The position numbers and the translations under genes are program-made. The notes beneath the pieces are model-generated. The model ran no database searches. It saw only the letters and a program-made list of their open reading frames with translations, and was not told where the DNA came from. 64,000 nucleotides of DNA from Aquidulcibacter paucihalophilus (GTDB taxonomy: Bacteria > Pseudomonadota > Alphaproteobacteria > Caulobacterales > Caulobacteraceae), in contig CP127384.1 of NCBI GenBank assembly GCA_030285985.1, positions 2,282,501 to 2,346,500 on the forward strand, written 5' to 3'. Positions 10,881 through 26,615 of this stretch are shown one piece after another. Position 1 is the stretch's first letter; the number at the start of each line of letters is the position of its first letter.

Positions 10881-10970
10881 GGACAGGTGGCGGAGTGGTC
10901 GATCGCGCACGCTTGGAAAGCGTGTGTAGGTGAAAGCCTACCGAGGGTTCGAATCCCTCTCTGTCCGCCA
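10881..10970 (+). tRNA. tRNA-Ser (anticodon GGA)
   Basis: A 90-nt tRNA with a 7-bp acceptor stem (GGACAGG paired with TCTGTCC, last pair G-U), discriminator G and encoded CCA. The anticodon arm is CACGC-TTGGAAA-GCGTG, reading codons UCC/UCU. A long class II variable arm (GTAGG-TGAAAG-CCTAC) and a T-arm with GGTTCGAATCC are present. The long variable arm and G73 are serine identity features. Confidence 0.97.
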
Positions 10971-11191: not shown

Positions 11192-11707
11192 ATGGTGAGA
11201 AAGTCGGCGATCTCTGAACTGGAGGAGACTCTCACGACCGCCTTCAGTGAGCGGCGGAGTCCGCTGCGGGCGATTACGTCGCGCGTCGATCCCAACGATG
11301 CGGAAGACCTGCTTCAGGACGCCGCCCTTCGCGCCATCGAGACCGAACGCCGGACCCCGGTCCACAAGCCGCTTCATCTGCTGCGTCGCATCCTGCGCAA
11401 CCTTGCGGTCGATCACGCGCGCGGCCGGGCGCGGACCACGCGGCTGTTCAATCCCGCCGAAGCGCCGGACATCGCCTGTGATCGGGGCGGACCCGAACGC
11501 CAACTGGTCGCCAGCGAGCGTCTGCATCGGGCCTTCACCATCATCGACAGCATGCCCTGCCGTCGACGTGAGGTATTTCTCCTGCACCGGATCGATGAAC
11601 TCACCCACCTGCAGATCGCTCGCCGGCTCGGCATCAGTACCAAGACGGTCGAGAAACATATCAGCCTGGCCATGGTTCAGCTGTCGCGCGAGATTGATCG
11701 CGAATGA
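11192..11707 (+). CDS. FecI-type ECF RNA polymerase sigma factor
   Basis: A 171-residue ECF sigma factor from ATG 11192 (MVRKSAISELEETLTTAF). Region 2 includes DPNDAEDLLQDAALRAIE and LRRILRNLAVDHARGRA; region 4 includes SMPCRRREVFLLHRIDELTH and the helix-turn-helix IARRLGISTKTVEKHISLA. Between them lies only a short linker, as in FecI-type factors. It is followed by a FecR-like gene and an STN-domain receptor, the standard cell-surface signalling trio. A TTGACA at 11157 and TATACT at 11184 lie upstream but are 21 bases apart, too far for a confident promoter. It probably transcribes fecR and the receptor from the GGGGT-N14-CGTCTA sites. Confidence 0.92.
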   Translation: MVRKSAISELEETLTTAFSERRSPLRAITSRVDPNDAEDLLQDAALRAIETERRTPVHKPLHLLRRILRNLAVDHARGRARTTRLFNPAEAPDIACDRGGPERQLVASERLHRAFTIIDSMPCRRREVFLLHRIDELTHLQIARRLGISTKTVEKHISLAMVQLSREIDRE

Positions 11708-11723
11708 GTGATAGATTCGGGGT

Positions 11724-11749
11724 GGGGGTGGAGGCCCTCCGCGCGTCTA
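11724..11749 (+). promoter_or_regulatory. Putative ECF promoter 1 (upstream of fecR)
   Basis: GGGGGT-N14-CGTCTA at 11724-11729 and 11744-11749. The same two boxes with the same 14-base spacer occur upstream of the TBDR gene at 12754-12779 while the spacer differs in sequence. Conservation of boxes and spacing, but not spacer, is what an ECF promoter pair should show. Confidence 0.65.
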
Positions 11750-11751
11750 TA

Positions 11752-11760
11752 GGGGGGGGG
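11752..11760 (+). repeat. Run of nine G at the expected transcription start of fecR
   Basis: Nine consecutive G follow the CGTCTA box directly, where a transcript from it would start. Such tracts can slip during replication or transcription. Confidence 0.6.
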
Positions 11761-11783
11761 TCAGCAAGGCACGGACGGACGCG

Positions 11784-12731
11784 ATGATCAGGGACGAGCG
11801 CGCGCGTGAGGAAGCCGGTCAGTGGTTTGCGATCATGCGCCGCGGCGCAACGACGCTGGAAGAACGCAAGGCCTTTGACCGATGGCGCGCTGATGCCACC
11901 AACCAGCGCGCCCTGGATGCCATGCATGAACTCTGGGGCGAGCTGGCTGTCCTGAAGACCCAGGCTGTTCAGCCCGTATCCCGGCCGGTGCCCGGCCGTC
12001 GCGCCTTCATGATCGCAGCCTCTGCCGCCGCCATGGTGGCCGTCGGTACGGGGGCCGTTCTGATGCCCCGACTGACTATGACCGAGGTCCGGACCGGTAT
12101 CGGTGAACAACAGACCCGCGCCCTGCCGGACGGCAGTGTCATGGCGGTCAATGTTGACAGTCGCCTGCAGTATGACTTCGACGACCGTCGGCGGATCAGG
12201 ATGGATAGCGGCGAGGCTGTCTTCTACGTTCGCAAGGACCCGCACCGGCCTTTCGTGGTCTCCGCCGGGGCCTATGACGTCCGGGCAATCGGTACGGCTT
12301 TCAATGTGCGGCGGCGCGGCGACGCGATGGAGGTGTCCGTCAGCGAAGGGGTCGTCGCCATCATCAACCGGGGAGACGGTCGGGAGCTGATGCGCTTGCG
12401 CGCCGGTGAAATGAGCGTCCTGCCGCCAGAGCCGGATCGGGCGCGTGCCGCGGTCGTGCCGGTGCCCGTCGAGAGCGTCGCCCAATGGCGGATGCGGGTC
12501 CTCGAATACGACGATGTTCCTGTGCAGGCACTGATCGCAGAGCTGAACCGGTTCTACGACAGGCCGCTGCGCATCGACGGGACCGCCCTCGCGAACCGTC
12601 GCATCACGGTGCGGCTGCGCGTCGAGGACCGGGATCGCACCTTGCAGACGGTCGCCGAACTGCTCGATGCCCGGGTTGAGCCCGGAGCGGGTTTCGACTC
12701 CCTGGTGGCACCCCCCGCCCCCACGAGCTGA
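11784..12731 (+). CDS. FecR-family anti-sigma/sigma regulator
   Basis: A 315-residue inner-membrane regulator. Residues 1-65 form the DUF4880 cytoplasmic domain that binds sigma (REEAGQWFAIMRRGATTLEE). A transmembrane helix follows at about 73-92 (AFMIAASAAAMVAVGTGAVL). The periplasmic FecR domain contains VFYVRKDPHRPFVVSAGAYD and IGTAFNVRRRGDAMEVSVSE, and the C-terminal DUF4974/STN-like domain ends DARVEPGAGFDSL. It receives the signal from the receptor's STN domain and controls the sigma factor encoded 76 bases upstream. A promoter-like sequence lies in that gap. Confidence 0.93.
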   Translation: MIRDERAREEAGQWFAIMRRGATTLEERKAFDRWRADATNQRALDAMHELWGELAVLKTQAVQPVSRPVPGRRAFMIAASAAAMVAVGTGAVLMPRLTMTEVRTGIGEQQTRALPDGSVMAVNVDSRLQYDFDDRRRIRMDSGEAVFYVRKDPHRPFVVSAGAYDVRAIGTAFNVRRRGDAMEVSVSEGVVAIINRGDGRELMRLRAGEMSVLPPEPDRARAAVVPVPVESVAQWRMRVLEYDDVPVQALIAELNRFYDRPLRIDGTALANRRITVRLRVEDRDRTLQTVAELLDARVEPGAGFDSLVAPPAPTS

Positions 12732-12753
12732 ACCGTCTCACCCCCGGGGAGGT

Positions 12754-12779
12754 AGGGGTACGGCGGTTCTCCACGTCTA
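12754..12779 (+). promoter_or_regulatory. Putative ECF promoter 2 (upstream of the STN receptor)
   Basis: AGGGGT at 12754-12759, 14 bases, then CGTCTA at 12774-12779. It matches the element before fecR in both boxes and spacing. The receptor ATG is 28 bases further, behind a GGGAGGG ribosome site. Confidence 0.65.
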
Positions 12780-12807
12780 AGTCAGGAAATGTCCTTGGGA
12801 GGGAACA

Positions 12808-15800
12808 ATGCGCAGACTTATGGGTACGGCGATCTTGCGCCGTCTGGCGATGGCGGGTGTGGGAGCGGCTGCCCTGACGGCGGGCCTGCCACCGGTGGCC
12901 ATGGCCCAGGAGCAGACCGCCACTTTTGAAATCCCCGCACAAAGGCTGTCGTCCGGTGTCCGGGCCCTGGCCAGCCAGGCACGGGTTTCGCTCGCGGCTC
13001 CGTCCGATCTCGTTGAGGGCCTCAATGGACCCGCCGTAAACGGTCAGATGAGTGTCCGGGCGGCTCTGAACCAGCTTCTCGCCGGCAGTGGACTGGAAGC
13101 CCAGTTCGTCAGCCCGGACAGCGTCCGCATCGTCAGAAGCGCATCCGGGGTCATCACGACCCAGCCGGCCACGGCCAATGCCGAGCTCGAGGAAATCATC
13201 GTCGTCGGCTCGCAGATCCGCGGCGCGCGGGTCAATGACGCGCTCCCCGTGACGGTCCTTGATGCGGAAGACCTGGACGGTGTCGCCGCGACCAACGGCG
13301 ATGAACTGTTCCGCGCCATTCCCCAGGCTGCCGACGTCGCCTTCAACGAGTCCCAGGACGTGGGCGGCATCAATGACGCCCGTGGGGATACGGCTTCGAT
13401 CAACCTGCGTGGTCTCGGTACCGGCAACACCCTGATGCTGCTGAACGGCCGCCGGATGATCCTGCACCCGGGCACCCAGACCGAGAACCTGGTTCCCGTG
13501 GCCACGGTCAACACCAATGCCATCCCGACGATGGGCGTGCGCCGGGTCGAGGTCCTGCTCGACGGGGCCGCGGCCCTTTACGGCACGGACGCTGTGGCTG
13601 GCGTGATCAACACGGTCCTCAGGTCTAATTTCGAAGGTCTGTCCGTCGAGGCCGGCGGCGGCGGTGCCGAAGGCACCAGCATGCGCCAGTACGATTTCAG
13701 CATTCAGGCCGGCCGTGACTTCAATGATGGTCGCACCAACATCTCGATCATGGGTGACTACAGCACGCGCAGCGAGCTCTGGGCCCGCGAGCGGGAATAT
13801 TCCCGCACCAGCGATATCCGCGGGCTGGTTGCCGACACGCCTTTTGCGGGTGACACCGACTTCGACAACAGTTCGATCGATACGCCCTGGGGCGAGTTCA
13901 TTCGTCTGACCAGCACCTTTGGTCCGACAACCCAGGGGACCCGGGTCAATGGCCAGACCCTGACCACCAGCAGCGTCTTCCATCTCCAGCCCAGCACCAA
14001 CCCGGGCTGCGTGGCGCCGGGCTCGGTGGCCGGTACCTGTTTCGACAACTCCGTCCTCACGACCGCCACTGAGGACGCCAATCTCCGCTATAACGTCAAT
14101 GATGTGCGGGCCCTGGTCGGAGCGAACGACCGCTACAATCTGTTCACCTTCGTCAATCACGAGTTCGACAACGGCCTGGAGTTCTTCGGCGAGGCCGGCG
14201 TCTACTATGCGGACTACAGCACCCAGCGCGAGGCGGAGACCTCACTCGCGAACGCTCCGATCATCATGGCCGCGAACGCCTACTGGAACCCGCTCGGCCC
14301 GGTCGGCAGTCCCAACCGTCTGCCCGGACTGTTGACCGGCACCACCGGATCGACCCCCTTCCCCGCCGAGGGCGCGCCCCTGATCATGCAGGACTACCGC
14401 GTGCTCGACGCGGGCCCTCAAAGGATCAATGTCGAGAGCCTCTCGACGCGTTTCCTGACCGGCCTTCGCGGTGAATGGAACGGCTTCGACTGGGAATCGG
14501 CCCTGGTCTATTCGACCTCGCAGACCGACGACTCGATGCGCACGATCAGCAGCACCCTGTTCGAGGATGCGGTGTCGCGCTCGACGCCGGATGCCTACAA
14601 TCCCTTCATCGGTGGCAGCCTGGTCGATCCCACGCGGGGCCCTGAGGTCGGCAACTCCCAGGCCATCATCGACAGCTTCATGGTGGATGTCTCGCGGGTG
14701 AGCGAAACCACCATGACCATGTGGGACTTCAAGCTCTCCCGGCCCGATCTCTTCGTCATGCCGGCAGGACCTGCGGGGATTGCGGCGGGCCTGGAGCTCC
14801 GTCGTGAGACCTTCTCCGATGACCGGGACGATCGCCTCGACGGCACCATCACCTTCACCAACAACGCCGGCCAGACCACCGGCAGCGACGTGATGGGGGC
14901 CAGCCCGACGCCGGACACACGCGGCTCGCGCAGCGTCCAGGGGGCCTTCGTCGAACTGGCCGTTCCGCTGGTTTCTGCCGAAATGAACATCCCGCTGGTC
15001 CATTCCCTGGACCTGCAGCTGGCGGCGCGCGCCGAGAACTATTCGATCTTCGGATCCGTCGCCAAGCCGAAGGTCGCCCTTGCCTGGCGTCCGGCCTCCT
15101 GGATGATGGTGCGCACGGCCTGGTCCGAAGGATTCCGCGCCCCGAACCTGCCGCAGCTCTACGAAGAGGGCGTCGAGCGTTCAAACACCCGCACCGACTG
15201 GATTCGCTGCGAGGTCGAGCTCCGGGCCGGCCGGATCGCCAATTTCAATGCCTGTAGCGCCAGTGTCAGTTCCCTCAGCCAGCGCTCCGGCAGCCAGGAG
15301 CTCAAGCCGGAAGAGTCCGAGAACTTCACCGTCGGGATGGTCGTTGAGCCGCGCTTCCTGCCTGCCGAATGGGGCGACCTGACCCTGACCCTGGACTACT
15401 GGAACATCCAGCAGGAAAGCCTCATCGGGATCTTCGGCGACGCCAATGCCCTGACGCTGGACTACCTGCTGCGCACCCAGGGCGACTCAAACCCCAACGT
15501 CGTCCGCGCCGCCCCGACACAGGCCCAGATTGACGCCGCCGCCGGCACCGGGCTGGCCCCGGTCGGTACCCTGATCCGGGTCATCGACAACTATCGCAAC
15601 CTGCAGCCGCGCGACGTCGACGGCATCGATTTCGGGGCCTACTACAGCCTCGACGACACGCCCTGGGGCGATTTCAGCTGGCGCCTGAACGCCGCCAAAC
15701 TGCTGACCTTCTTCCAGGACCCCAGCGAGGATTCGACGCTTCTGCTGGCCGCCCAGGCTGCCGGTGACATCGATCCCAGTGTCCGGATTGTCGGTGCCAA

Positions 15801-16155
15801 TGACCTCAGGCTTCAAAACGGACTGCCGGAATGGCGGGCGACCTCGACGGTCACCTGGCGCAACGGCAACTGGGGTGCCGGCCTTTACAGCAGCTATGTC
15901 AGCGAGGTGGTCGATACCAGCGCCACCCTGGCCGACGGCACCGAATGGGTGGTCGACGACTGGCTGACGCACAATGTCTATGCCCAGTACGATTTCGACA
16001 TTCCGGGCGTGCTGAACGACACGCGCATCCGGGTCGGGGTTCGCAATATCGAGGGCAAGGACCCGCCGCTGGCCGATCAGTCGGCCGGCTATCTGGGCAG
16101 CCTGCATTCGAACCGCGGACGCTGGTTCTACGCCACTCTGCGCAAGCGCTTCTGA
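12808..16155 (+). CDS. TonB-dependent receptor with STN signalling domain
   Basis: A 1115-residue outer-membrane receptor. It has a signal peptide ending PVAMAQ (about residue 34), then an STN domain at about 39-108 (FEIPAQRLSSGVRALASQA to DSVRIV) that talks to FecR. A TonB box region (ELEEIIVVGSQIRG) is followed by a plug with NLRGLGTGNTLMLLNGRR and the 22-strand barrel ending RGRWFYATLRKRF. The terminal Phe is normal for barrel insertion. Its own FecI/FecR genes precede it. Ligand unknown; the downstream symporter and gamma-glutamyltransferases suggest a gamma-glutamyl compound rather than iron (inference). Confidence 0.95.
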   Translation: MRRLMGTAILRRLAMAGVGAAALTAGLPPVAMAQEQTATFEIPAQRLSSGVRALASQARVSLAAPSDLVEGLNGPAVNGQMSVRAALNQLLAGSGLEAQFVSPDSVRIVRSASGVITTQPATANAELEEIIVVGSQIRGARVNDALPVTVLDAEDLDGVAATNGDELFRAIPQAADVAFNESQDVGGINDARGDTASINLRGLGTGNTLMLLNGRRMILHPGTQTENLVPVATVNTNAIPTMGVRRVEVLLDGAAALYGTDAVAGVINTVLRSNFEGLSVEAGGGGAEGTSMRQYDFSIQAGRDFNDGRTNISIMGDYSTRSELWAREREYSRTSDIRGLVADTPFAGDTDFDNSSIDTPWGEFIRLTSTFGPTTQGTRVNGQTLTTSSVFHLQPSTNPGCVAPGSVAGTCFDNSVLTTATEDANLRYNVNDVRALVGANDRYNLFTFVNHEFDNGLEFFGEAGVYYADYSTQREAETSLANAPIIMAANAYWNPLGPVGSPNRLPGLLTGTTGSTPFPAEGAPLIMQDYRVLDAGPQRINVESLSTRFLTGLRGEWNGFDWESALVYSTSQTDDSMRTISSTLFEDAVSRSTPDAYNPFIGGSLVDPTRGPEVGNSQAIIDSFMVDVSRVSETTMTMWDFKLSRPDLFVMPAGPAGIAAGLELRRETFSDDRDDRLDGTITFTNNAGQTTGSDVMGASPTPDTRGSRSVQGAFVELAVPLVSAEMNIPLVHSLDLQLAARAENYSIFGSVAKPKVALAWRPASWMMVRTAWSEGFRAPNLPQLYEEGVERSNTRTDWIRCEVELRAGRIANFNACSASVSSLSQRSGSQELKPEESENFTVGMVVEPRFLPAEWGDLTLTLDYWNIQQESLIGIFGDANALTLDYLLRTQGDSNPNVVRAAPTQAQIDAAAGTGLAPVGTLIRVIDNYRNLQPRDVDGIDFGAYYSLDDTPWGDFSWRLNAAKLLTFFQDPSEDSTLLLAAQAAGDIDPSVRIVGANDLRLQNGLPEWRATSTVTWRNGNWGAGLYSSYVSEVVDTSATLADGTEWVVDDWLTHNVYAQYDFDIPGVLNDTRIRVGVRNIEGKDPPLADQSAGYLGSLHSNRGRWFYATLRKRF

Positions 16156-16161
16156 CGGGAC

Positions 16162-16188
16162 GGCGGCACCGGGGTGACCGGTGCCGCC
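16162..16188 (+). terminator. Terminator hairpin after the STN receptor
   Basis: GGCGGCACCGG and CCGGTGCCGCC form a perfect 11-bp stem with a 5-base loop, starting 6 bases after the stop codon. The following TGTCTGCTCC has few U, so strength is uncertain, but position and stem are convincing. Confidence 0.7.
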
Positions 16189-16252
16189 TGTCTGCTCCAG
16201 CGTCCGGGCCCCGGCCCTGGTCGGCCCGTCCGTCCCTGCGAGATTTGACTGA

Positions 16253-17557
16253 ATGACCGATGCCGCCCCCCGTCCGCCCGAACCTGCCCGGCGAGGCCCC
16301 TTCACGCGCTTGACCCGACTGTGGTTTGCCACGGCCCTGTGGAAGCGGATTCTGCTGGGTCTTTTCCTCGGCGTGATCGCCGGCCTGATCCTCCAGGAGC
16401 GTGCGGTCGACATCAAATGGCTCGGTGATGCCTTCATCCGGCTGATCCGCATGCTGGTGGTGCCGCTGGTGTTCATCACCATCGTCGCCGGCGTGGCCGC
16501 CATGGCCGAACCGCGACGACTCGGCGCGATCGGGACCAAGACCATCGGTCTCTATTTCGGCCTGATGTTGATCGCCAGCAGCCTGGGCCTCCTGATCGGC
16601 ACTCTCCTGCAGCCCGGCGTCGGGGTCGATCTCAGCGGGGCGGTTCCCATCGTCTCGGGCACGCCGCCCGGGTCGTTTGGCGAAACCCTGATGAACATCA
16701 TTCCCGTGAATCCGATTGCCGCCATGGCCACGGGCGACGTGCTGGCGGTCATCTTCTTCGCCCTGCTGCTCGGCACCGGCATCCTGGTGGTCGGCGAGCC
16801 CGCCCGGCCGCTCCGCCGGCTGTTCGACGCCGGCTCAGCGGTGATGCTGCAGATCACCTCCTTCGTTATGGAGATGGCCCCCTTCGGTGTGTTCGCCCTG
16901 ATCGCCTGGGTGACCGGCACCAGCGGCGCAGGTGCCTTCCTCAGCGTCTTCAAACTGGCCCTGTGCGTGCTGATCGGTTGCGCCATCCAGACCCTGCTGG
17001 TCCACGGCGGCCTGATCCGCCTGCTGGCCCGCCTGCCCGCGCGTCCCTTCTTCCGGGACGTGACCGATGCCGTCGTCGTCGCCTTCACCACCTCGTCCAG
17101 TTCGGCGACCCTGCCGGTCGCGATGCGGGTGGCCCAGACCAACCTGGGAGTCAGCCCGACCGTCGCCTCGACCACACTGCCGATCGGTGTCACCCTGAGC
17201 ATGGACGGGACAGCCCTGTATGTCGCCCTGCTGGCCATGTTCGCGGCCCAGGTGTTCGGCATCCAGCTGACGCTGGTCGACTATCTTATGGTCATCCTGA
17301 CGACGACCCTGGTCGCCATCGGAACCGCGCCGGTTCCCTCGGCCTCGCTTTTCATCCTCGCCGCCGTGCTTTCGGTCCTCGGCATCAGCGCCGAACAGAC
17401 GGCCCTGCTCGTCGGTTTCATCCTGCCGTTCGACCGGCCCCTGGACATGATGCGCACCATCCCGAACTGCACCAGTGATCTGTCGGTCGCCGTGGTCGTT
17501 GCGCGGTCCGAGGGGGAACTCGACGTGCCGTCCTATCTTGCGAAGCCTGTCGAATGA
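16253..17557 (+). CDS. Dicarboxylate/amino acid:cation symporter (DAACS/SDF family)
   Basis: A 434-residue inner-membrane protein of the GltP/DctA type that imports glutamate, aspartate or C4-dicarboxylates with protons or sodium. The hairpin motif appears as TTSSSSATLPVAMRVA, the substrate-binding regions as MDGTALYVALLAMFAAQ and FDRPLDMMRTIPNCTSDL. It starts MTDAAPRPPEPARRGPF, with a short Pro-rich cytoplasmic N-terminus. Its stop overlaps the start of the gamma-glutamyltransferase gene by four bases, so uptake of glutamate released by that enzyme is the simplest role. Substrate is inferred. Confidence 0.93.
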   Translation: MTDAAPRPPEPARRGPFTRLTRLWFATALWKRILLGLFLGVIAGLILQERAVDIKWLGDAFIRLIRMLVVPLVFITIVAGVAAMAEPRRLGAIGTKTIGLYFGLMLIASSLGLLIGTLLQPGVGVDLSGAVPIVSGTPPGSFGETLMNIIPVNPIAAMATGDVLAVIFFALLLGTGILVVGEPARPLRRLFDAGSAVMLQITSFVMEMAPFGVFALIAWVTGTSGAGAFLSVFKLALCVLIGCAIQTLLVHGGLIRLLARLPARPFFRDVTDAVVVAFTTSSSSATLPVAMRVAQTNLGVSPTVASTTLPIGVTLSMDGTALYVALLAMFAAQVFGIQLTLVDYLMVILTTTLVAIGTAPVPSASLFILAAVLSVLGISAEQTALLVGFILPFDRPLDMMRTIPNCTSDLSVAVVVARSEGELDVPSYLAKPVE

Positions 17558-19296
17558 GCGCGCCGACCCCGCTGCTGAGAAAGGGGTCCATCACCCTTTT
17601 CGCCGGCCTCATGGCAGCGTTCTCGCTGTCCGGAGGGGCGCGGGCCCTGCCCCGGGCGGACGAGGCCGCGCCCCGTCAGGCCCTGGTCAGCGCCGCCCAT
17701 CCGATCGCGGTTGAGGCCGGGCTCCGGATCCTCAGGCAAGGCGGCAGCGCAATGGACGCCGCCGTCGCCGTTGAAGCGATGCTCGGTCTCGTCGAACCCC
17801 AGAGCTCGGGCCTCGGTGGCGGGGCTTTCATCATGTATTTCGACGCCGCCACGGGCACGGTCAGCGCCTATGACGGCCGTGAAACCGCGCCGGCGGCTGC
17901 CGCTCCGGACATGTTCCTGGACGAGTCCGGTCGCCCGCTGTCACGGGCGCAGGCCATGCTGTCCGGGCGTGCGACGGGGGCTCCCGGGGCTGTGCCGGTC
18001 CTTGCGCTGGCCCATGCGGCCCACGGGCGACTGGACTGGGCTCGTCTGTTCGACGGACCGATTGCCGTGGCCGAGGCCGGGTTCACGATCACGCCGCGTC
18101 TGGCCGAACACATCCACGGCACCTTTCCCCAGGCGACCGCCCCGGATGTCCTCGGCTATTTCGCACGAGCTGACGGCAGCCGCATGCAGGTTGGCGACCG
18201 GCTCGTGAACCCCGCCTATGCCGGGGTGTTGCGCCGGATCGCAGTCGAGGGCCCCGAGGCGCTTCAGCGTGGACCGATCGCCGAGGCCATCGTCCAGAGA
18301 ACGGCCGGGTCGCCCCTGGCCGGCAGTCTGACGACGGCGGATCTGGCTGCCTATGAGGCACGGGCGGTCGATCCCGTCTGCGGCCCCTATCGCGTCTACA
18401 CCATCTGCGTGCCGCCGCCGCCGTCCAGCGGCGCGGCCCTGCTGCAGCTGATGGCCCTGCTGGACCGGACTGACATCGCAGAGCGCGGTCCCGACGACCC
18501 CATCGCCTGGGTGCAGTTCGCCGAGGCCAGTCGCCTGATGTATGCCGACCGCGACCGCTATTTCGGCGATCCCGATTTCGTTGATGTGCCGGTCGCCGGC
18601 CTGCTGGACCCCGCCTATCTGGACAGCCGGGCGGCCCTGGTCGGTCGCCGGGCCTCAGGGACGGCCCCGACCCACGGGGAGCCCGACGGAATTGCTTCAC
18701 CTGGTCCCGACGCGACAGCCGAACCCCGCGGCACGACCCATTTCGTGGTCGTGGATTTCGACGGAAACGTCGCTTCGGTCACCGCGACGGTCGAGTCCTA
18801 CTTTGGCTCCGGCCGGATGGTCCACGGCTTCTTCCTCAACAACCAGATGACCGACTTTTCGTTTCGTCCGACCGATCCGGACGGTAGCCCGGCCGCCAAT
18901 GCCGTGGCCGGTAGCAAACGTCCCCGTTCGTCGATGTCACCGGTCATCGTGCTGGATCGCGAGGGTCGGCTGGTCGCGGCCCTGGGCTCCCCAGGCGGCA
19001 GTGCCATCCTGGCCTATAACGCCAAGGCCCTGGTCGGGCTGCTGGCCTGGGACCTGCCCCTGCTCGAGGCGTTCAGCCTTCCAAACCTCGTCGCCCGCGG
19101 CGACAATTTCAACGGCGAAGCCTCACGCCTGCCCCCGGGTATGCGAGAAGAACTGGACCGGCGCGGCGTGACCGTGCGCCCCGGCAGTGGTGAGGATTCG
19201 GGCCTGCACGGTGTGGTCGTGGGACCGACCGGACTGAGGGGGGCTGCCGATCCTCGCCGCGAGGGGGTAGCGATTATCCTGGAGCGCCTTCCATGA
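17554..19296 (+). CDS. Gamma-glutamyltransferase, periplasmic (copy 1)
   Basis: A 580-residue Ntn-hydrolase precursor that hydrolyses or transfers the gamma-glutamyl group of glutathione and related compounds. A signal segment (SITLFAGLMAAFSLSGGA) is followed by the large-subunit motif SAAHPIAVEAGLRILRQGGSAMDAAVA and GLGGGAFIMYFD. The self-cleavage and catalytic threonine is Thr394 in RGTTHFVVVDFDG. The small subunit has FFLNNQMTDFSF and KRPRSSMSPVIVL, then the GSPGG oxyanion loop. It is coupled to the symporter before it and to the hydrolase after it (ATGA overlaps). Length is normal. Confidence 0.95.
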   Translation: MSAPTPLLRKGSITLFAGLMAAFSLSGGARALPRADEAAPRQALVSAAHPIAVEAGLRILRQGGSAMDAAVAVEAMLGLVEPQSSGLGGGAFIMYFDAATGTVSAYDGRETAPAAAAPDMFLDESGRPLSRAQAMLSGRATGAPGAVPVLALAHAAHGRLDWARLFDGPIAVAEAGFTITPRLAEHIHGTFPQATAPDVLGYFARADGSRMQVGDRLVNPAYAGVLRRIAVEGPEALQRGPIAEAIVQRTAGSPLAGSLTTADLAAYEARAVDPVCGPYRVYTICVPPPPSSGAALLQLMALLDRTDIAERGPDDPIAWVQFAEASRLMYADRDRYFGDPDFVDVPVAGLLDPAYLDSRAALVGRRASGTAPTHGEPDGIASPGPDATAEPRGTTHFVVVDFDGNVASVTATVESYFGSGRMVHGFFLNNQMTDFSFRPTDPDGSPAANAVAGSKRPRSSMSPVIVLDREGRLVAALGSPGGSAILAYNAKALVGLLAWDLPLLEAFSLPNLVARGDNFNGEASRLPPGMREELDRRGVTVRPGSGEDSGLHGVVVGPTGLRGAADPRREGVAIILERLP

Positions 19297-20207
19297 AGAC
19301 GAAGCATTCAATCCTCTTTGCCGCGGCCCTGCTGTCCCTGCCGGCAACCACCGTCACGGCTGCCGTCGTCCAGGATACGGCCGCGCCGGAGACTGCGGCC
19401 CCGGCCACCCTCCCGGAACGGGTGGCCTTCCGTAGTATGGACGACGCACGCACCGAGCTCGTCGGCTACCTCTATTCGCCCGAAGGCGTTCAGGGTCCGG
19501 CTCCGGCGGTGGTCCTCATGCACGGGCGGGCCGGTGCCTATTCCTCCCTGGCCGACGGCGTTTACGACGCGACCACCCTGTCCATGCGGCATCGCTACTG
19601 GGCGCAGTACTGGGCGGCGCGCGGCTACTACGCCCTGGTCGTCGACGGCTTTGGGCCCCGCGGATACCCCGGGGGCTTCGAGCGCGGCAGCTACGGCGAG
19701 CGCCCGGATGCGGTAAACGAGGTCACGGTGCGCCCGCTCGATGCCTATGGTGCCCTGCGCTACCTGCGCACCCTGCCGGGTGTGGACGATGACCGGATCG
19801 GGCTGATGGGCTGGTCCAACGGCGGCAGCGCGACCCTCGCGACGATGGCGGACGACAAGCCCGGCGACATGCGCCGCCTGGGATTCCGCGCGGGCCTCGC
19901 CATGTACCCGGCCTGCGGCCTGCACAACCGCTTCGACCGTGCCGGCTACAGCCCCTACGCGCCGGTCCGCGTGTTCATGGGCACCGAGGACGAGGAGGTC
20001 TCTCACGATCGCTGCCGCGACCTGATCGGCGCCAGCCGGGCGCGCGGTCATGACGTGACCTTTACCTCCTATCGCGGAGCCACCCACAGTTTCGACGACC
20101 CGGGCACCCGCCGTCAGTCTGTGCCGGCCAATGCCCGCGCCACGGCCGATGTCCGCCAACAGGCCGAGATATTCTTCGCTGAGGCCCTCGCCCCCCGCCT
20201 GCCCTGA
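19293..20207 (+). CDS. Secreted dienelactone hydrolase-family enzyme
   Basis: A 304-residue alpha/beta hydrolase with a signal peptide (MKTKHSILFAAALLSLPATTVTA). Motifs are VVLMHGRAGAY (oxyanion region), LMGWSNGGSATLATM with the nucleophile Ser, MGTEDEEVSHDRCR for the acid region and YRGATHSFDDPGTRR with the catalytic His. The family cleaves esters or lactones. It sits between two gamma-glutamyltransferase genes and overlaps the first by four bases, so it may remove an ester or thioester group from the same substrate; that is inference. Confidence 0.88.
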   Translation: MKTKHSILFAAALLSLPATTVTAAVVQDTAAPETAAPATLPERVAFRSMDDARTELVGYLYSPEGVQGPAPAVVLMHGRAGAYSSLADGVYDATTLSMRHRYWAQYWAARGYYALVVDGFGPRGYPGGFERGSYGERPDAVNEVTVRPLDAYGALRYLRTLPGVDDDRIGLMGWSNGGSATLATMADDKPGDMRRLGFRAGLAMYPACGLHNRFDRAGYSPYAPVRVFMGTEDEEVSHDRCRDLIGASRARGHDVTFTSYRGATHSFDDPGTRRQSVPANARATADVRQQAEIFFAEALAPRLP

Positions 20208-20253
20208 TGGGCCCTCCGGCGAAACAGCCGGCCGTCAATATGTGAGCTCTCCG

Positions 20254-21999
20254 ATGTTGCTGAAGCCCCTGTCCCTGCTGTGTGCAGTCGTTCTGTCGGC
20301 CACCTCCGTGCTCGCACAGGAAGCCCCCGCCCCCGTTCGCCCGGGCGCAGGATCGGGCGGCGATATCGTCAGCTACGACCAGATACATCACCCGGTGGTC
20401 GGGCGCGGCGGCATGGTGGTCAGCCAGAGCGCCCCGGCGTCAGAGGTCGGGGTCGACATCCTGCGACGGGGCGGCAATGCCGTCGACGCGGCGGTCGCGG
20501 TCGCTCTCGCCCAGGCGGTGACCCTGCCCCGCGCCGGCAACCTCGGCGGCGGGGGTTATATGCTGGTGCATATGGCGGCGACTGCCGATCAGCCCGCCGT
20601 CGATCTGGCCATTGACTACTATGGTGTCGCGCCCCGGGCCCTGACCCCGGACCTGCTACTGGATGACAATGGCCGGTTCGACCGGACAACGCCGGCCGGG
20701 TTCCGCAACGCCTCCGTGCCCGGGACGGTGGCAGGCCTGTGGGAGGCCCACCAGCGTTTCGGCAGCCTGCCATGGTCCGACCTCGTCGCCCCCGCCATCG
20801 CCCTCGCCGAGGACGGTGTCCAACTGAGCGACGGCGAGGCCGAAGCCACCGCGGGACGGGCCGCCGTCCTCGCCCGCGACCCTGGAGCGCGCGAAGCCTA
20901 TCTGAAGCCGGACGGCACCCCCTATACGGCCGGCGAACGCTTTCGACAGCCCCATCTGGCCTGGAGCCTGCGCCAGGTCCAGGCCGGCGGTGCCGACGCC
21001 TTCTATCGGGGCGAACTGGCCCGGCGCATCATCGCCGGGGTCGAGGCCGGCGGTGGGATCATGGACGCTCGCGACATGGCCGACTATCGCGTCGAGATCA
21101 GCGAGCCCCTGTGGTCCGATTACCGCGGCTACCGCATCGCCCACATGCCCCCGACTGCCTCGGGCGTGAGCGTTGCCGAGGCCCTGAACATCCTCGAGCT
21201 GTGGCCGCTGCGGGACATGGGCTGGGGCAGTGTCGACAGCCTTCACCTGCTGGCCGAGACGTTGAAAGTGGTCTCGGCGGACCGCAGGCTGCTGGGCGGT
21301 GGGCCCCAGTGGCGCACGCCCTCAATGGGCCTCGCCAGCAAGGGCTTCGCGCGCGAGCGGGCCGGTCTGATCCGGCTCGACCGGGTCCTCGGCGAGGGAG
21401 ATGTCCCGGTCGGGGACCCATATCCGCACGAGAGTCGTGACACGACCCATTTCTCCGTTGCCGATGCCGCGGGGAATGTCGTCAGCAACACCTTCACCCT
21501 TTCCAACTCCTACGGAGCCCATGTGGCGGCTCCGGGCACGGGGATTCTGCTCAACAACTCCCTCGACAATTTCTCGTGGGGCAGTGCCGACGATACGGTC
21601 ACGGCCAACCAGCCCGCACCCGGGAAACGGGTCAGGTCGACCATCTCGCCCATGATCGTCTTCGGCCGTGACGACCGGCCCTGGCTGGTGACCGGCACGC
21701 CGGGGGGCAGCTATATCGTGCCCACGATGATCCAGCTGGTCGTCAACGTCATCGACCATGATCTCAATGTCGCCGAGGCCGCCATGCGCCCCCGGATCAA
21801 CCAGGGTGCCGCCGGACGGCCGCTGGAGTTCGAAGCCGGCTATTCCCGCGACATCGAACGTCTGCTGGAGGCCCGCGGCCACGAAGTCAGCCCTTCAGCC
21901 ACCATGGGCAGCACCCAGTCGATCATGATCGACGGTGACCGGTTCCTCGGTGCAGCCGACACCCGCAGGCCCGATGCCCTCGCGCTCGGAGTCCGCTGA
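20254..21999 (+). CDS. Gamma-glutamyltransferase, periplasmic (copy 2)
   Basis: A 581-residue gamma-glutamyltransferase from ATG 20254 with signal peptide MLLKPLSLLCAVVLSATSVLA. The catalytic Thr is Thr397 in RDTTHFSVADAAGN. Other motifs are VDILRRGGNAVDAAVAVALA, GNLGGGGYMLVHMA, LLNNSLDNFSWG, KRVRSTISPMIVF and GTPGGSYIVPTMIQ. It is clearly diverged from copy 1, so the two may prefer different acceptors or donors. It lies 46 bases after the hydrolase gene in the same direction. An upstream in-frame extension overlaps the hydrolase and is not supported. Confidence 0.95.
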   Translation: MLLKPLSLLCAVVLSATSVLAQEAPAPVRPGAGSGGDIVSYDQIHHPVVGRGGMVVSQSAPASEVGVDILRRGGNAVDAAVAVALAQAVTLPRAGNLGGGGYMLVHMAATADQPAVDLAIDYYGVAPRALTPDLLLDDNGRFDRTTPAGFRNASVPGTVAGLWEAHQRFGSLPWSDLVAPAIALAEDGVQLSDGEAEATAGRAAVLARDPGAREAYLKPDGTPYTAGERFRQPHLAWSLRQVQAGGADAFYRGELARRIIAGVEAGGGIMDARDMADYRVEISEPLWSDYRGYRIAHMPPTASGVSVAEALNILELWPLRDMGWGSVDSLHLLAETLKVVSADRRLLGGGPQWRTPSMGLASKGFARERAGLIRLDRVLGEGDVPVGDPYPHESRDTTHFSVADAAGNVVSNTFTLSNSYGAHVAAPGTGILLNNSLDNFSWGSADDTVTANQPAPGKRVRSTISPMIVFGRDDRPWLVTGTPGGSYIVPTMIQLVVNVIDHDLNVAEAAMRPRINQGAAGRPLEFEAGYSRDIERLLEARGHEVSPSATMGSTQSIMIDGDRFLGAADTRRPDALALGVR

Positions 22000-22197: not shown

Positions 22198-23670
22198 TCA
22201 TTGGCCTGCCCCAACCCGCTCAGCGTGGACGCACGGCGGTGGAGCTTCGGTGGTTTTCAGAACGCGTAACCACCGGGTCACGGGGCCGAGAAACGCGTCA
22301 TTGGCGGTCAGATCTCCGAAGATGTCTGTCATCGCGAGCAACTCGGACTGGTCAACACCGCCTGCTTTCGCGAGCGATCTCAGTTCGTCCGCCCGGGGGT
22401 GACGAAGGGCCAGGGAATGGTCATCGACCAGGGCGAGGCGATGGATCCAGGCCGCGACGGCAAGGGAGAGGCGTCTGATCGGCCTGCCGGCTGCCAGCCT
22501 GTCCCGGATCGGGTCCAGCAGCAGATTGATCGATGCGTCCGTATTGATCCGTTCGACGGTGTCGCGAAGCGTGCGGTTGGAAAAGCGCTGCACCAGTCGA
22601 TCCTGATAGGCTGCCAGATCGACCGGCAGGTCCGCAGGCAGGGTCGGTGACAGTTCCTGTTCCATCAAGGCGCGGATGTAGCGCGCCAGCCTCGGGTCCC
22701 GCATCGCCTCAGCGACCATTCGATAGCCCAGCAGCCAGCCCAGTGAAGCCAGCGCCAGATGGCTGGCGTTCAGCAGGCGCAGCTTCATGCGCTCGAACGG
22801 CTCCACGTCTGCCGTGAACTGGACGCCGACAGCCTCCCATTTCGGCCGACCGTCGGCGAAATCGTCCTCTATCACCCATTGGGAATAGGGCTCGCAGATG
22901 ATCGGCCAGGCATCCACCAGCCCCCAGGTCCCTGCCATCGCCGCGACGTCGTCCGGGCGTGTCACGGGCGTGATCCGGTCCACCATGGTCGCCGGGAATC
23001 GCGCGTGTTCCGCGATCCAGCCGGCCAGTTCGGCATCAACCAGACCAGCGAAGTCCAGCACTGCAGACCTGAGCAGGCTGCCGTTACCGGGCAGGTTATC
23101 GCAGCTCAGCGCGGTGAAGGCCGGTCGGCCGGCGTTCATGCGTCGTCGGTAGGCCTCGACCAGCAGTCCGATGACGGACCCGGGGCGTTGCGGATGGGCC
23201 AGGTCCATCACGATGAGGGGGTTGGCCCGGTCCAGCCGCCGCGTGATGGCATCCAGGCAGTAGCCGTTCTCGCTGACAGTCAGACTGACGATGCGGACCC
23301 CGGCCCCATCGATGCAGTCCAGGATGACCTCGGTGCCCTCCGGAGCGACGATGTCGACGATCGACCCTACGACCTGGGCCGTCGCCCCGTCGTCGTCGCG
23401 CTCGACCAGCGTATAGAGCCAGTCCTGTGCAGAGAGCGCATCGCGGACGCCCGCATCGAAGGGCGTCAGGCCCGCGCCGACGATGCCCCATTCCATCGCC
23501 TGACCATCGTTCATCAAGGCGTGGACGTAGCGAGCCATGTGGGCGCGGTGAAACGCACCCGGCCCGAGGTGGACGATGCCCGCGGTGATCTGTGACGGGT
23601 CATAGGTCAGACCCGCCACCCCGTCAGGCAGACGATCCAGCGTCGCGCAACAAAGCCTCGGAGGCGTCAC
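22198..23670 (-). CDS. Mannitol dehydrogenase/fructuronate reductase family
   Basis: A 490-residue NAD(P)-dependent polyol dehydrogenase from a GTG at 23670 that overlaps the MFS stop (GTGA). The N-terminal Rossmann part has GIVHLGPGAFHRAHMARYVH; conserved blocks are SENGYCL, SCDNLPGNG and FPATMVDRITPVT. The C-terminal domain has FERMKLRLLNASHLALASLGWLLG with the catalytic Lys region. The family includes mannitol 2-dehydrogenase and D-fructuronate or tagaturonate reductases, which sequence alone cannot separate. A fructokinase upstream on the same strand favours mannitol to fructose; the GntR regulator would also fit uronate metabolism. Confidence 0.88.
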   Translation of the reverse strand: MTPPRLCCATLDRLPDGVAGLTYDPSQITAGIVHLGPGAFHRAHMARYVHALMNDGQAMEWGIVGAGLTPFDAGVRDALSAQDWLYTLVERDDDGATAQVVGSIVDIVAPEGTEVILDCIDGAGVRIVSLTVSENGYCLDAITRRLDRANPLIVMDLAHPQRPGSVIGLLVEAYRRRMNAGRPAFTALSCDNLPGNGSLLRSAVLDFAGLVDAELAGWIAEHARFPATMVDRITPVTRPDDVAAMAGTWGLVDAWPIICEPYSQWVIEDDFADGRPKWEAVGVQFTADVEPFERMKLRLLNASHLALASLGWLLGYRMVAEAMRDPRLARYIRALMEQELSPTLPADLPVDLAAYQDRLVQRFSNRTLRDTVERINTDASINLLLDPIRDRLAAGRPIRRLSLAVAAWIHRLALVDDHSLALRHPRADELRSLAKAGGVDQSELLAMTDIFGDLTANDAFLGPVTRWLRVLKTTEAPPPCVHAERVGAGQ

Positions 23671-24977
23671 GTCTGCTTCGGCGCCGCCCTGGCGGCCAGG
23701 GCGAAGGCGATCAGCGAAAGGAGGCTGGACGCGAGTCCGACCCCCGCCAACGCCGGTGCCAGCGCCCCCTCTCCGCCGACACGCTCGCTGATGATCGTCA
23801 CCAGCGACGGTGCCACGCCAAAGCCGATGAACGATCCCACGACGACAAACGAGCCCAGGCAGAGCGCGCGGAATTGATTGGGAACCAGTACGGCGATCGC
23901 CGTGGCCGTGATCAGACCCGTGGCCGTCCCCGCCAGAAGCAGGGCGGTGAGCAGCAGGGCGAAGCCGGGCACGCCCGGCATGATCGGAAACAGGGCGGCG
24001 GGCACACCGATCGCCGAGGCGATCACCGCACTGATCAACAGGCCCCTGCCGCCGCCTCGTTTCAGACCTGCGTCCGCTGCGATCCCACCGGCGATCGTGC
24101 CGACCAGGCCCGAACCCAGCAACACCAGCCCCATCCAGCCGCCGAACTCGGCGGGCTGCAGTCCATAGGTCCGCATAAGGACGGGCGTGGCCCAGATGCC
24201 GGCCGAGGCGTCGGCCATGATGACAGCGATCTGCCCCACAAACAGCGGTGCCAGAAGGCCGCGCCGGTCCCACAGCGCCTGCATGGAGGCCTGGAAGCCC
24301 ACGGCCGCCTTCTCCACCTCCTGTCGGACGGGTTCGCGCAGCATCAGCAGCGGCAGGACCAGCAGGGCGCTGCCACCCGCGAAGATCAATTGGGTCACGC
24401 GCCATGCGGCCATTCCGAACAATGGCTCGGTTCGCGCCGACAGGATTCCGAACAGGGTACCGCCCACGGCGAAGGCCAGGGCGATGCCGACCACCTTGCC
24501 CATGGAGAGGAGCAGCAGCGACCGCCCCCGCTTGTCCGGTGGGCAGAGGTCGGCGGCGATGGAGATGGCGACGGGTAGCACGACCGTAAGCCCCAGGGCC
24601 GACAGCATGCGGGCGGCGAACAGCATTTCGAACGACGTAGCGAAGGCACTGGCGGCGGCGCCCACGCTCCACAGCACCGCCAGGACCAGCATGATGCGGA
24701 CCCGGTTGCTGTGATCGGCCATCCATCCGATCGGAATGGACAGCAGGGCAGCGGGGATCGCGGTTGCCATGCCCTGCACCAGACCCATCTGCATATCTGA
24801 CAGGTTCAGGTCGGTGCGGGCGAACTCCTGCACCGGACCGAACGCCGCCTGGACCGCGCACCCGGCACCGATGCTCAACGCCAGAATCGTCAGGGTCAGG
24901 CCGAGCCCACGCGAACGGGGCACAACAGGCCCCGGCTGTGACCCGAGCGTGGCCTCGATCGCGGTTGAATCAGACAT
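23667..24977 (-). CDS. MFS transporter
   Basis: A 436-residue 12-helix major facilitator from ATG 24977. It has the loop 2-3 motif GWMADHSNRVRIMLVLAVLW and the central loop EPVRQEVEKAAVGFQASM. The start overlaps the gntR stop by 8 bases and the end overlaps the dehydrogenase start by 4, so three genes are tightly coupled. It likely imports the polyol, sugar acid or hydroxyacid used by this block. Substrate unknown. Confidence 0.88.
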   Translation of the reverse strand: MSDSTAIEATLGSQPGPVVPRSRGLGLTLTILALSIGAGCAVQAAFGPVQEFARTDLNLSDMQMGLVQGMATAIPAALLSIPIGWMADHSNRVRIMLVLAVLWSVGAAASAFATSFEMLFAARMLSALGLTVVLPVAISIAADLCPPDKRGRSLLLLSMGKVVGIALAFAVGGTLFGILSARTEPLFGMAAWRVTQLIFAGGSALLVLPLLMLREPVRQEVEKAAVGFQASMQALWDRRGLLAPLFVGQIAVIMADASAGIWATPVLMRTYGLQPAEFGGWMGLVLLGSGLVGTIAGGIAADAGLKRGGGRGLLISAVIASAIGVPAALFPIMPGVPGFALLLTALLLAGTATGLITATAIAVLVPNQFRALCLGSFVVVGSFIGFGVAPSLVTIISERVGGEGALAPALAGVGLASSLLSLIAFALAARAAPKQT

Positions 24978-25713
24978 GGCCCTGCTCCGGGTTTGCGAGG
25001 CCACGCAGGATGTCCCCGATCGAGGCGTCGAAATGGGCGTCCATCGCCTGGACGGCGGCATCGGCGTCGCGATCCATGATGGCGCGGGCCAGGGTGCGAT
25101 GACGCATCAGCGTCGCAGCGCGGTCCTCGGGGCCCTCGCGGGTCTTCCAGGCCGCGGGCACGGCCTCGTGCATCAGCGGTGCGAACGAGGCGACGATCTG
25201 GACGAACAGGGCATTCTTGCCGGCGCGGGCGATGGCATCGTGAAAGGCGATGTCATGGGCGGCGACCTTGTCCATGTCGTCGTGATCACGGTCCATCGCT
25301 TCAGCCAGGTCGACGATTGCCCGGGCCTCGGCGTCGGTCCGGTTCTGGGCAGCGAGGGCAGCGGTGCGGATCTCGATCGTGCGGCGCACGTCCCAGACGT
25401 CAGCGACGGAAATCTGGGCTGTAGACACGGCGTGATCCAGCGAACTCGCGATCACGGCACCGTCGATGGCGCTGACGCGGGGTTTGCGGCCGTTGCCCAC
25501 GTCGAGCAGGCGCAGCGCCGCAAGAACGCCGAACGCCTCGCGCATGACCGCCCGGCTGACCCCCAGTTGGCCGGCGAAATGGCCTTCGCCGGGCAGGCTG
25601 TCGCCAACGCGCAACCCCTCGGCCCGGATATGGGCGCGGACGGCGTCAATGGCGCGCTGGACCAGCGATCCGCCCTCAACGCCGGAGCGCCCGCTCATGG
25701 TCAGTCCGCTCAT
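24970..25713 (-). CDS. GntR-family (FadR/FCD) transcriptional regulator
   Basis: A 247-residue repressor. The winged helix at residues 20-85 contains IRAEGLRVGDSLPGEGHFA and QLGVSRAVMREAFGVLAAL. An FCD ligand domain follows, with VRRTIEIRTAALAAQN, HDIAFHDAIARAGKN and MRHRTLARAIMDRDADAA; its histidines normally bind a metal and a carboxylate ligand. This subfamily commonly senses lactate, glycolate or hexuronates. The ATG at 25713 shares a base with the araC stop. It may act at the inverted repeats at 26566 or 30218. Confidence 0.9.
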   Translation of the reverse strand: MSGLTMSGRSGVEGGSLVQRAIDAVRAHIRAEGLRVGDSLPGEGHFAGQLGVSRAVMREAFGVLAALRLLDVGNGRKPRVSAIDGAVIASSLDHAVSTAQISVADVWDVRRTIEIRTAALAAQNRTDAEARAIVDLAEAMDRDHDDMDKVAAHDIAFHDAIARAGKNALFVQIVASFAPLMHEAVPAAWKTREGPEDRAATLMRHRTLARAIMDRDADAAVQAMDAHFDASIGDILRGLANPEQGHV

Positions 25714-26519
25714 CAGGCGGCGATCCGGGCGGCCCGGTAATCGGACGGCGAAAGGCCGAACCGACGCCCGAAGGCACGGGCGAAGCTGGCGTTGTTCAGA
25801 TAGCCGTTCTCGTAGCCGATAGAGGAGATGGGCAGGTCGGTGGTGACCAGCATCCGGCTGGCCTCGGAAAGCCGTCGCTCGGCCAGGGCCTCGGCGACGC
25901 TGCAGGCGAACATCTTTCGGAAGCCGCGCGTCAGCTTCTCGCGGTTCATGCCGCAGCGGGCGGCGATGCCATGCAGCGAGAGCTTCTGGCCCCACTGTTC
26001 GTCGATCAGCCGGCGCGCCTCCAGCAGACGACGACTGTCGGCCTGCGACAGGTCGCTGTCTCCGGCGGCGGGAACCAGCTCGCCCCCGTCCAGCGCAGCC
26101 CAGGTGTCGCAAAGAAGCTCGAGCGCCTTGGCGGTTCGATAGATGTCGCCCGCTTCAGTGTCGCGGTCGCATTCCCGAAGCGCCAGCGCGATGGCGCGCA
26201 AGGAACTCGGCAGGTGGAAATCCAGGCGTTCGTCGGCCTGCGGAAGAGTGTCGGCACCGATGCGGGCCAGACCCGAAGGCGAGATGAAGAGCACAATCCG
26301 CGTAACGCCTGTATCCTCGGACGCCAGTTCCTCCGCTCGCCCCGATCCCACGAGGCTCAAGGTCGCCGGAGCATCGATGGATCCGAGGTCGAAGGCGACG
26401 ACGACCGGATCCGGCGGGATCGAAGCCTCCTCGAAGGGACCTCGCCCGGTGAAGACGGTGAACTCGGGCGAAACGACCAGGCAGCGACGCGCGACGGGCG
26501 CGGGGTTCGAAGTGATCAT
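25713..26519 (-). CDS. AraC-family transcriptional regulator
   Basis: A 268-residue regulator from ATG 26519, chosen for a strong GGGAGGAG site; an upstream ATG at 26585 would add 22 residues and run through the inverted repeat. The N-terminal half is not a clear cupin. The C-terminal domain has two helix-turn-helix motifs: KLSLHGIAARCGMNREKLTR and LPISSIGYENGYLNNASFAR, ending GLSPSDYRAARIAA. It heads the araC-gntR-MFS-dehydrogenase set. Direct GAGCTATC repeats 23 bases apart lie just upstream, as expected for an AraC-type site. Confidence 0.9.
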   Translation of the reverse strand: MITSNPAPVARRCLVVSPEFTVFTGRGPFEEASIPPDPVVVAFDLGSIDAPATLSLVGSGRAEELASEDTGVTRIVLFISPSGLARIGADTLPQADERLDFHLPSSLRAIALALRECDRDTEAGDIYRTAKALELLCDTWAALDGGELVPAAGDSDLSQADSRRLLEARRLIDEQWGQKLSLHGIAARCGMNREKLTRGFRKMFACSVAEALAERRLSEASRMLVTTDLPISSIGYENGYLNNASFARAFGRRFGLSPSDYRAARIAA

Positions 26520-26565
26520 GGGCTCCTCCCGCCTCTCTGACGGAGGCTGAGGGGTGACGATGGAG

Positions 26566-26599
26566 CTATCTGACAGCTTTGGCAAGAGCTATCAGATAG
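26566..26599. promoter_or_regulatory. Inverted repeat operator upstream of araC
   Basis: CTATCTGACAGCT, an 8-base spacer, then AGCTATCAGATAG: 13-base arms matching at 12 positions. It also contains the direct repeat GAGCTATC at 26563 and 26586. It lies 47 bases upstream of the araC start and 17 bases after the end of the FAD-dehydrogenase gene. No T-run follows on either strand, so an operator is more likely than a terminator. Confidence 0.6.
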
Positions 26600-26615
26600 G
26601 TTCTGCCTCGGGCGC

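Follow-up and report, generated by a model that had tools for sequence, protein, structure and literature searches.

A FecIR-type locus of Aquidulcibacter paucihalophilus as a candidate system for uptake and periplasmic hydrolysis of glutamyl amides

What compound is taken up by the outer-membrane receptor of a seven-gene locus in Aquidulcibacter paucihalophilus, and what do the enzymes encoded next to it cleave? The locus lies in a stretch of 64,000 nucleotides (positions 2,282,501 to 2,346,500 of the single 3.10-Mb contig CP127384.1, assembly GCA_030285985.1), hereafter called the window, and combines a cell-surface signalling trio, namely a FecI-like extracytoplasmic function (ECF) sigma factor, a FecR-like regulator and a TonB-dependent receptor (TBDR) with an STN domain, with an acidic amino-acid symporter of the SDF family, two proteins of the gamma-glutamyltransferase (GGT) family and a serine hydrolase. 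An earlier note, made from the sequence alone, had placed these genes in the same order, and open reading frames (ORFs) and domains now agree on all seven. The answer we favor, with a probability of about one half, is that the system, in its general form, would take up a glutamyl or N-acyl-glutamate amide under FecIR control and hydrolyze it in the periplasm. The genes are as follows.

11192..11707, + strand: FecI-like ECF sigma factor (PF08281 and PF04542 above cut-offs; Sigma70 r2 and r4)
11784..12731, + strand: FecR-like sigma regulator (PF04773, 74.4 bits; PF16220, 27.2 bits)
12808..16155, + strand: TBDR with STN signalling domain (PF07660, STN; PF07715, Plug; PF00593, barrel; also placed by the receptor tree)
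16253..17557, + strand: SDF-family acidic amino-acid symporter (PF00375, 366.7 bits; substrate motif; aspartate transporter PDB 9bgz)
17554..19296, + strand: GGT1, gamma-glutamyltransferase/hydrolase with canonical donor pocket RTEQDSSG and signal-peptide-like N-terminus (PF01019, 453 bits; residues; tree)
19293..20207, + strand: alpha/beta hydrolase with serine nucleophile motif GWSNGG and signal-peptide-like N-terminus (PF01738, 52 bits)
20254..21999, + strand: GGT2, GGT-like N-terminal nucleophile (Ntn) hydrolase with Tyr114, Asn433 and Thr463 and signal-peptide-like N-terminus (PF01019, 467 bits, from 20251)

The two GGT-family proteins differ in the pocket that holds the gamma-glutamyl group. 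According to the available text of PMC8062742, the alpha-carboxylate of this group is contacted in bacterial GGTs by R114, S462 and S463 and its alpha-amine by N411, Q430 and D433 (E. coli numbering, to which the B. subtilis contacts given there were transferred). GGT1 has R, E, Q, D, S and S at positions 114, 411, 430, 433, 462 and 463, where the Glu at 411 matches Bacillus GGT (same part of PMC8062742), and thus unites PF01019 and the Thr nucleophile with the R114, Q430, D433, S462 and S463 of a gamma-glutamyltransferase. GGT2 has Y, S, S, N, S and T instead; it retains S462, the Thr nucleophile and the GG motif, but the changes R114Y, N411S, Q430S, D433N and S463T remove most of the residues that bind the alpha-carboxylate and alpha-amine. 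The description of the pair as two diverged GGTs therefore stands for family membership and for GGT1 but not for the pocket of GGT2, and we rejected the notion of two equivalent GGTs, only GGT1 having kept the gamma-glutamyl pocket residues. Profile scores do not follow the pockets: GGT2 exceeds the cut-off of the NCBIfam GGT equivalog TIGR00066 at 436 bits despite its altered pocket, whereas GGT1 falls narrowly below it (347.7 versus 357.85) despite an intact one. Y114, N433 and T463 are present in 120/120 of the best 120 of 6,243 GGT2 homologues, among which the named ones are called gamma-glutamyltransferase, gamma-glutamyltranspeptidase or glutathione hydrolase; identity to GGT2 is 71-73% in loci L115 and L172 and 81% in the Brevundimonas protein P0016.

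The Asn that replaces D433 in GGT2 is also found at this position in class IV cephalosporin acylases, and the D433N variant of E. coli GGT loses transpeptidation altogether, keeps ~82% of hydrolysis and gains activity as an acylase of glutaryl-7-aminocephalosporanic acid (glutaryl-7-ACA), as stated in the available text of PMC8062742. Because of the changed pocket residues and this D433N precedent, we predict that GGT2 acts as a hydrolase on acyl groups that lack a free gamma-glutamyl head. The variant and the class IV enzymes are reportedly the subject of Suzuki et al. 2004, a study cited in PMC8062742 and PMC11421214.

This residue pattern goes together with outer-membrane receptors. Our main set of 106 GGT ORFs, from 120 loci picked by similarity to GGT2 or the symporter and hence biased towards GGT2, with interrelated rows, contains 26 Tyr114/Asn433 enzymes (type C, the type of GGT2), 14 Arg114/Asn433 enzymes (type B) and 66 Asp433 enzymes. 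A TBDR of the window family lies within 8 kb of 25/26 type C, 14/14 type B and 2/66 Asp433 genes, so that all Asn433 rows together give 39/40. With eight receptor queries the respective figures are 25/26, 12/14 and 1/66 within 2 kb, and 25/26, 14/14 and 3/66 within 8 kb. As a less biased control we used a PF01019 sample from 46 Caulobacterales genomes (99 rows plus L220, an Asn433 enzyme with a receptor 53 bp away, and L279, an Asp433 enzyme for which the receptor search gave no match), in which TBDRs dissimilar to the eight queries escape detection. Here a TBDR is found within 7.5 kb of 4/5 Asn433 rows, 7/59 Asp433 rows (GGT1 of the window and L222 included) and 12/37 rows with other residues, the counts within 3 kb being 2/5, 5/59 and 9/37. 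The linkage of Asn433 enzymes with TBDRs in the GGT2-biased set is well over the Caulobacterales background, where five Asn433 rows are too few to serve as sole proof. In the GGT tree (71 of 111 rows, every fourth RTNEDSSG row being retained and one truncated row removed; midpoint root), the Asn433 rows are united by a 96/99 branch, inside which type C forms a group of its own at 100/100. Type B enzymes, with Arg114, Gly411 and Asn433, would suit N-acylated gamma-glutamyl groups such as the L-Ala-gamma-D-Glu of cell-wall peptides.

A separate observation concerns the other canonical-pocket GGT of the same genome (G000:C1:569657-571204; L003, L314), in which Ser replaces the catalytic Thr (RSEQDSSG), as it also does in congeners; catalytic Ser occurs in 22/58 Asp433 rows of the Caulobacterales sample before L279 was added. 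In the available text of PMC8062742, the Thr-to-Ser change costs ~90% of the activity of two tested GGTs.

Within the operon, the ECF sigma, FecR-domain and STN-bearing receptor genes are adjacent and in that order. The effector genes had been described as joined by overlaps or short gaps, and so they are: 4-bp overlaps connect the symporter with GGT1 and GGT1 with the hydrolase, and 46 bp separate the hydrolase end from GGT2 when the latter begins at 20254, a start likelier than the 20131 of the ORF list since the signal-peptide-like N-terminus, judged by eye, starts there. Near its C-terminus the symporter carries the D-x3-D-x2-RT-x2-N substrate motif of acidic amino-acid transporters (DRPLDMMRTIPNCTSDL), with S, not N, preceding MDGT. 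The hydrolase does pass the PF01738 cut-off, in line with the dienelactone-hydrolase-like enzyme named previously, but dienelactone hydrolase has a cysteine nucleophile whereas GWSNGG provides a serine. Among solved structures, DPP4 and acetyl-xylan/cephalosporin-C esterases stand closest to the hydrolase.

Gene order in relatives, which the earlier note had proposed as a check, bears out the pairing of receptor and GGT-family gene. Among 20 regions from 19 genomes, picked by GGT2 similarity, a TBDR lies within 1.1 kb of the GGT2 homologue in 19, one of them the region of a congener (genome G013, locus L065) in which the hydrolase intervenes; a symporter of the window type is present in 0/20. 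The receptor tree separates the receptors of type-C partners from the others at 83/94 and joins those of the window and G013 to the receptors of L127, L214 and L197 (100/99), which belong to clusters of the form TBDR-SDF-type-B GGT; the L210 and L222 receptors belong to a different type-B subgroup. Because of this grouping the window operon has a mixed make-up: a receptor of type-B lineage, with the symporter and hydrolase found beside that lineage, plus a type-C enzyme. In congeners the corresponding order is FecR-TBDR-SDF-GGT(B)-hydrolase (L197), FecR-TBDR-SDF-hydrolase (L196) or TBDR-SDF-hydrolase (L198), and L127 has the symporter plus an Asn433 enzyme beside a receptor related to that of the window.

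The same lineage leads to D-glutamate. DgcN-DgcA form a D-glutamate catabolism pathway, as described in the available text of PMC12363236, and in L214 the order is LysR-dgcN-dgcA-TBDR-SDF-GGT(B)-GGT(A)-...-hydrolase. L222 is similar, with an additional D-aminoacylase-like gene before the symporter and no LysR seen in a region that begins inside dgcN; L210 reads LysR-dgcN-dgcA-TBDR-D-aminoacylase-SDF-GGT(B) and, as far as its contig extends, is without GGT1 and hydrolase. NCBIfam equivalog cut-offs are passed by DgcN of L214, L158 and L210 and by DgcA of L214, and the extra enzyme of L210 has a D-aminoacylase and an N-acyl-D-glutamate deacylase among its nearest structures. Across 199 genomes of the family, a symporter of the window type and dgcN are at most 6 kb apart in 12/43 symporter places, 12/36 dgcN places and 12/15 genomes with both. 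What surrounds receptor and symporter in relatives points to D-glutamate chemistry rather than to glutathione. The comparison favors the D configuration, with a cell-wall-type gamma-D-glutamyl peptide or poly-gamma-D-glutamate as the putative source, a tentative step to which we give clearly less than even odds.

How the parts might work together we infer as follows. The TBDR would bind an external glutamyl or N-acyl-glutamate amide, report it to the sigma factor by way of FecR and bring the compound into the periplasm. There GGT2, with no pocket for free gamma-glutamyl groups, and the serine hydrolase may open amide or ester bonds where the alpha-groups of glutamate are blocked or absent; GGT1 would then free glutamate from the terminal gamma-glutamyl group, and the symporter would import it. 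The broader proposal of the earlier note, a set for periplasmic amide cleavage and glutamate import under the signalling trio, is supported by the acidic motif of the symporter, the pocket of GGT1, the pairing of receptor and GGT-family gene in relatives and the lack of a good Fur box in the four operon gaps tested, discussed below.

Comparison with the congener G013, whose operon has ~90% nucleotide identity to that of the window (blastn), indicates which of these parts are kept together. Two further features are needed here.

10881..10970, + strand: tRNA-Ser (GGA), found by ARAGORN, whose 3' end is the left edge of the block common to G013
16227..19225, no strand: segment absent from G013 (blastn of the window against L065)

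The match stops at 16226 and restarts at 19226, so that the symporter and GGT1 are gone from L065 except for some 70 bp at the 3' end of GGT1. Because this remnant is retained, the symporter-GGT1 pair is ancestral and was lost in G013 by deletion, and a recent insertion of the pair into the operon was rejected. The five genes kept in G013 (sigma factor, FecR, TBDR, hydrolase and GGT2) show nonsynonymous divergence (dN) of 0.023-0.043 and synonymous divergence (dS) of 0.29-0.45, with dN/dS of ~0.07-0.12, i.e. purifying selection; the unit under shared selection is therefore the trio with hydrolase and GGT2. The block common to both genomes extends from ~10965, at the 3' end of the tRNA-Ser, to ~22006, just past GGT2, whereas its flanks differ, and the 19.9-kb region of G013 yielded no tRNA; the block is thus possibly a transferable or mobile cassette.

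Several results weigh against the favored reading, and above all against its D-glutamate form. dgcN and dgcA gave no match in the window genome (G000, thresholds E 1e-30 and 1e-15), in G013 or in G019, and neither did D-aminoacylase at the threshold used, so that D-glutamate would be unusable by that route here; both dgc genes are found in the homologous clusters. None of these three genes lies within 8 kb of a type-C row (0/26), whereas M20, S58, M14 or DUF4953 peptidase genes do so in 17/26. Of the dgcN clusters placed on the receptor tree (L210, L214, L222), only L214 falls in the subgroup of the window. Moreover, the order in G185 and G008 is TBDR-SDF-hydrolase, uninterrupted by a GGT; together with the loss of symporter and GGT1 in G013, this argues that the receptor can do without any one of the enzymes. 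A D-glutamate route exactly as in the dgcN clusters is therefore not supported, and the clue, given the missing matches and the 0/26, belongs to the lineage of receptor and symporter and not to a complete pathway here. Imported D-glutamate could enter wall synthesis or undergo racemisation by MurI.

The earlier note had itself suggested import of glutathione, one of its conjugates or a gamma-glutamyl peptide. In this reading an L-gamma-glutamyl compound of that kind would be cleaved by GGT1 (perhaps also GGT2), and the symporter would take up L-glutamate. The canonical GGT1 pocket and the symporter motif speak for that proposal, and GGT2 scoring above the NCBIfam GGT cut-off and a genome without dgcN or dgcA matches would also agree with it. 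Nevertheless, the loss of R114, N411, Q430 and D433 in GGT2 (S462 kept, Thr for S463), the retention of everything but symporter and GGT1 in G013 and the frequent position of related symporters beside dgcN-dgcA make it rather unlikely. The same deletion in G013 suits a more generic scavenging of acyl amides or peptides, in which the Asn433 enzyme would be a non-glutamyl acyl amidase with symporter and GGT1 as incidental passengers; the Tyr114 group lacks most glutamyl contacts and often has the peptidase neighbors counted above. We consider this improbable, since related receptors retain the symporter and hydrolase in L196, L197, L198, L214 and L222, and the symporter with an Asn433 enzyme in L127.

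Iron was weighed as well. A xenosiderophore system, in which FecIR and the receptor import an iron carrier while hydrolase and GGT2 open ester or amide bonds to free the iron, would accord with the presence of a serine hydrolase, with the weak solved matches of the receptor (enterobactin and pyoverdine receptors, besides BtuB) and with iron carriers being the best-known ligands of FecIR trios in the available text of PMC9249621. However, no good Fur box was found in the four operon gaps tested, the best match having 10/19 mismatches versus 6 elsewhere in the window; the relatives of the receptor adjoin amino-acid symporters, D-amino-acid enzymes and peptidases, and no iron ABC importer was noticed beside them in the genes scanned or read, though no systematic search for one was made. 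We regard this explanation as improbable and return to hydrolysis of a glutamyl or N-acyl-glutamate amide as the preferred reading.

Use of folate or p-aminobenzoyl-glutamate, prompted by an M20 neighbor, was also considered and set aside: among known structures, the M20 protein of L078 comes nearest to HmrA and Xaa-Arg dipeptidase, with a weaker resemblance to the aminobenzoyl-glutamate protein, and the M20 protein of L066 has no match in the window genome at E 1e-20. Elsewhere among type-C loci, a sulfatase-family gene (PF00884; L084:2367-4046) adjoins a TBDR-type C GGT pair with FecR. Beyond GGT2, the minus strand of the window at 22198-28019, read by eye, appears to encode a mannitol/mannonate-type dehydrogenase, a major facilitator superfamily (MFS) transporter, GntR and AraC regulators and a FAD-linked dehydrogenase, a set that resembles sugar-acid catabolism.

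It is possible, although we would not put it higher than that, that Asn433 GGT-like proteins are a receptor-coupled amidase subfamily and that receptors of the window type are an outer-membrane route for gamma-D-glutamyl compounds, for example cell-wall peptides. If so, TonB-dependent uptake would be tied to D-glutamate recycling under interchangeable FecIR or LysR regulators. Import of D-glutamyl, cell-wall-type compounds for reuse by way of TonB-dependent receptors becomes a testable idea. The natural group bears the change made in the laboratory as E. coli D433N and accompanies outer-membrane receptors, and its window branch has additionally lost the Arg that binds the carboxylate; acylase-type GGTs would thereby acquire a physiological setting, and database names such as 'glutathione hydrolase' are unsafe for Asn433 enzymes. 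The titles and abstract openings surveyed do not describe a TBDR-coupled GGT or a D-glutamyl uptake system.

Compared with known systems, the window operon shares with FecIRA-type signalling the order of ECF sigma, FecR and STN-bearing receptor but differs in its gaps, poor in Fur-box matches, and in its effectors, which are amidases and an amino-acid symporter. With the DgcN-DgcA clusters it has in common the homologous receptor, symporter, Asn433 GGT and hydrolase that lie downstream of dgcN-dgcA in L214 and L222; it differs in having FecIR in place of the LysR regulator of L210 and L214, and its genome gave no dgcN or dgcA match. Both GGT-family proteins resemble E. coli GGT (PDB 2e0w/2dbu; PF01019) in fold family, N-terminal Thr nucleophile and GG oxyanion motif, and GGT1 also in the donor pocket, whereas GGT2 departs from it at R114, N411, Q430, D433 and S463 (Tyr, Ser, Ser, Asn and Thr) and has a shorter lid-loop stretch. 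GGT2, finally, shares Asn433 both with the D433N variant of E. coli GGT and with class IV cephalosporin acylases, but it has in addition lost R114 and lies in a receptor operon.

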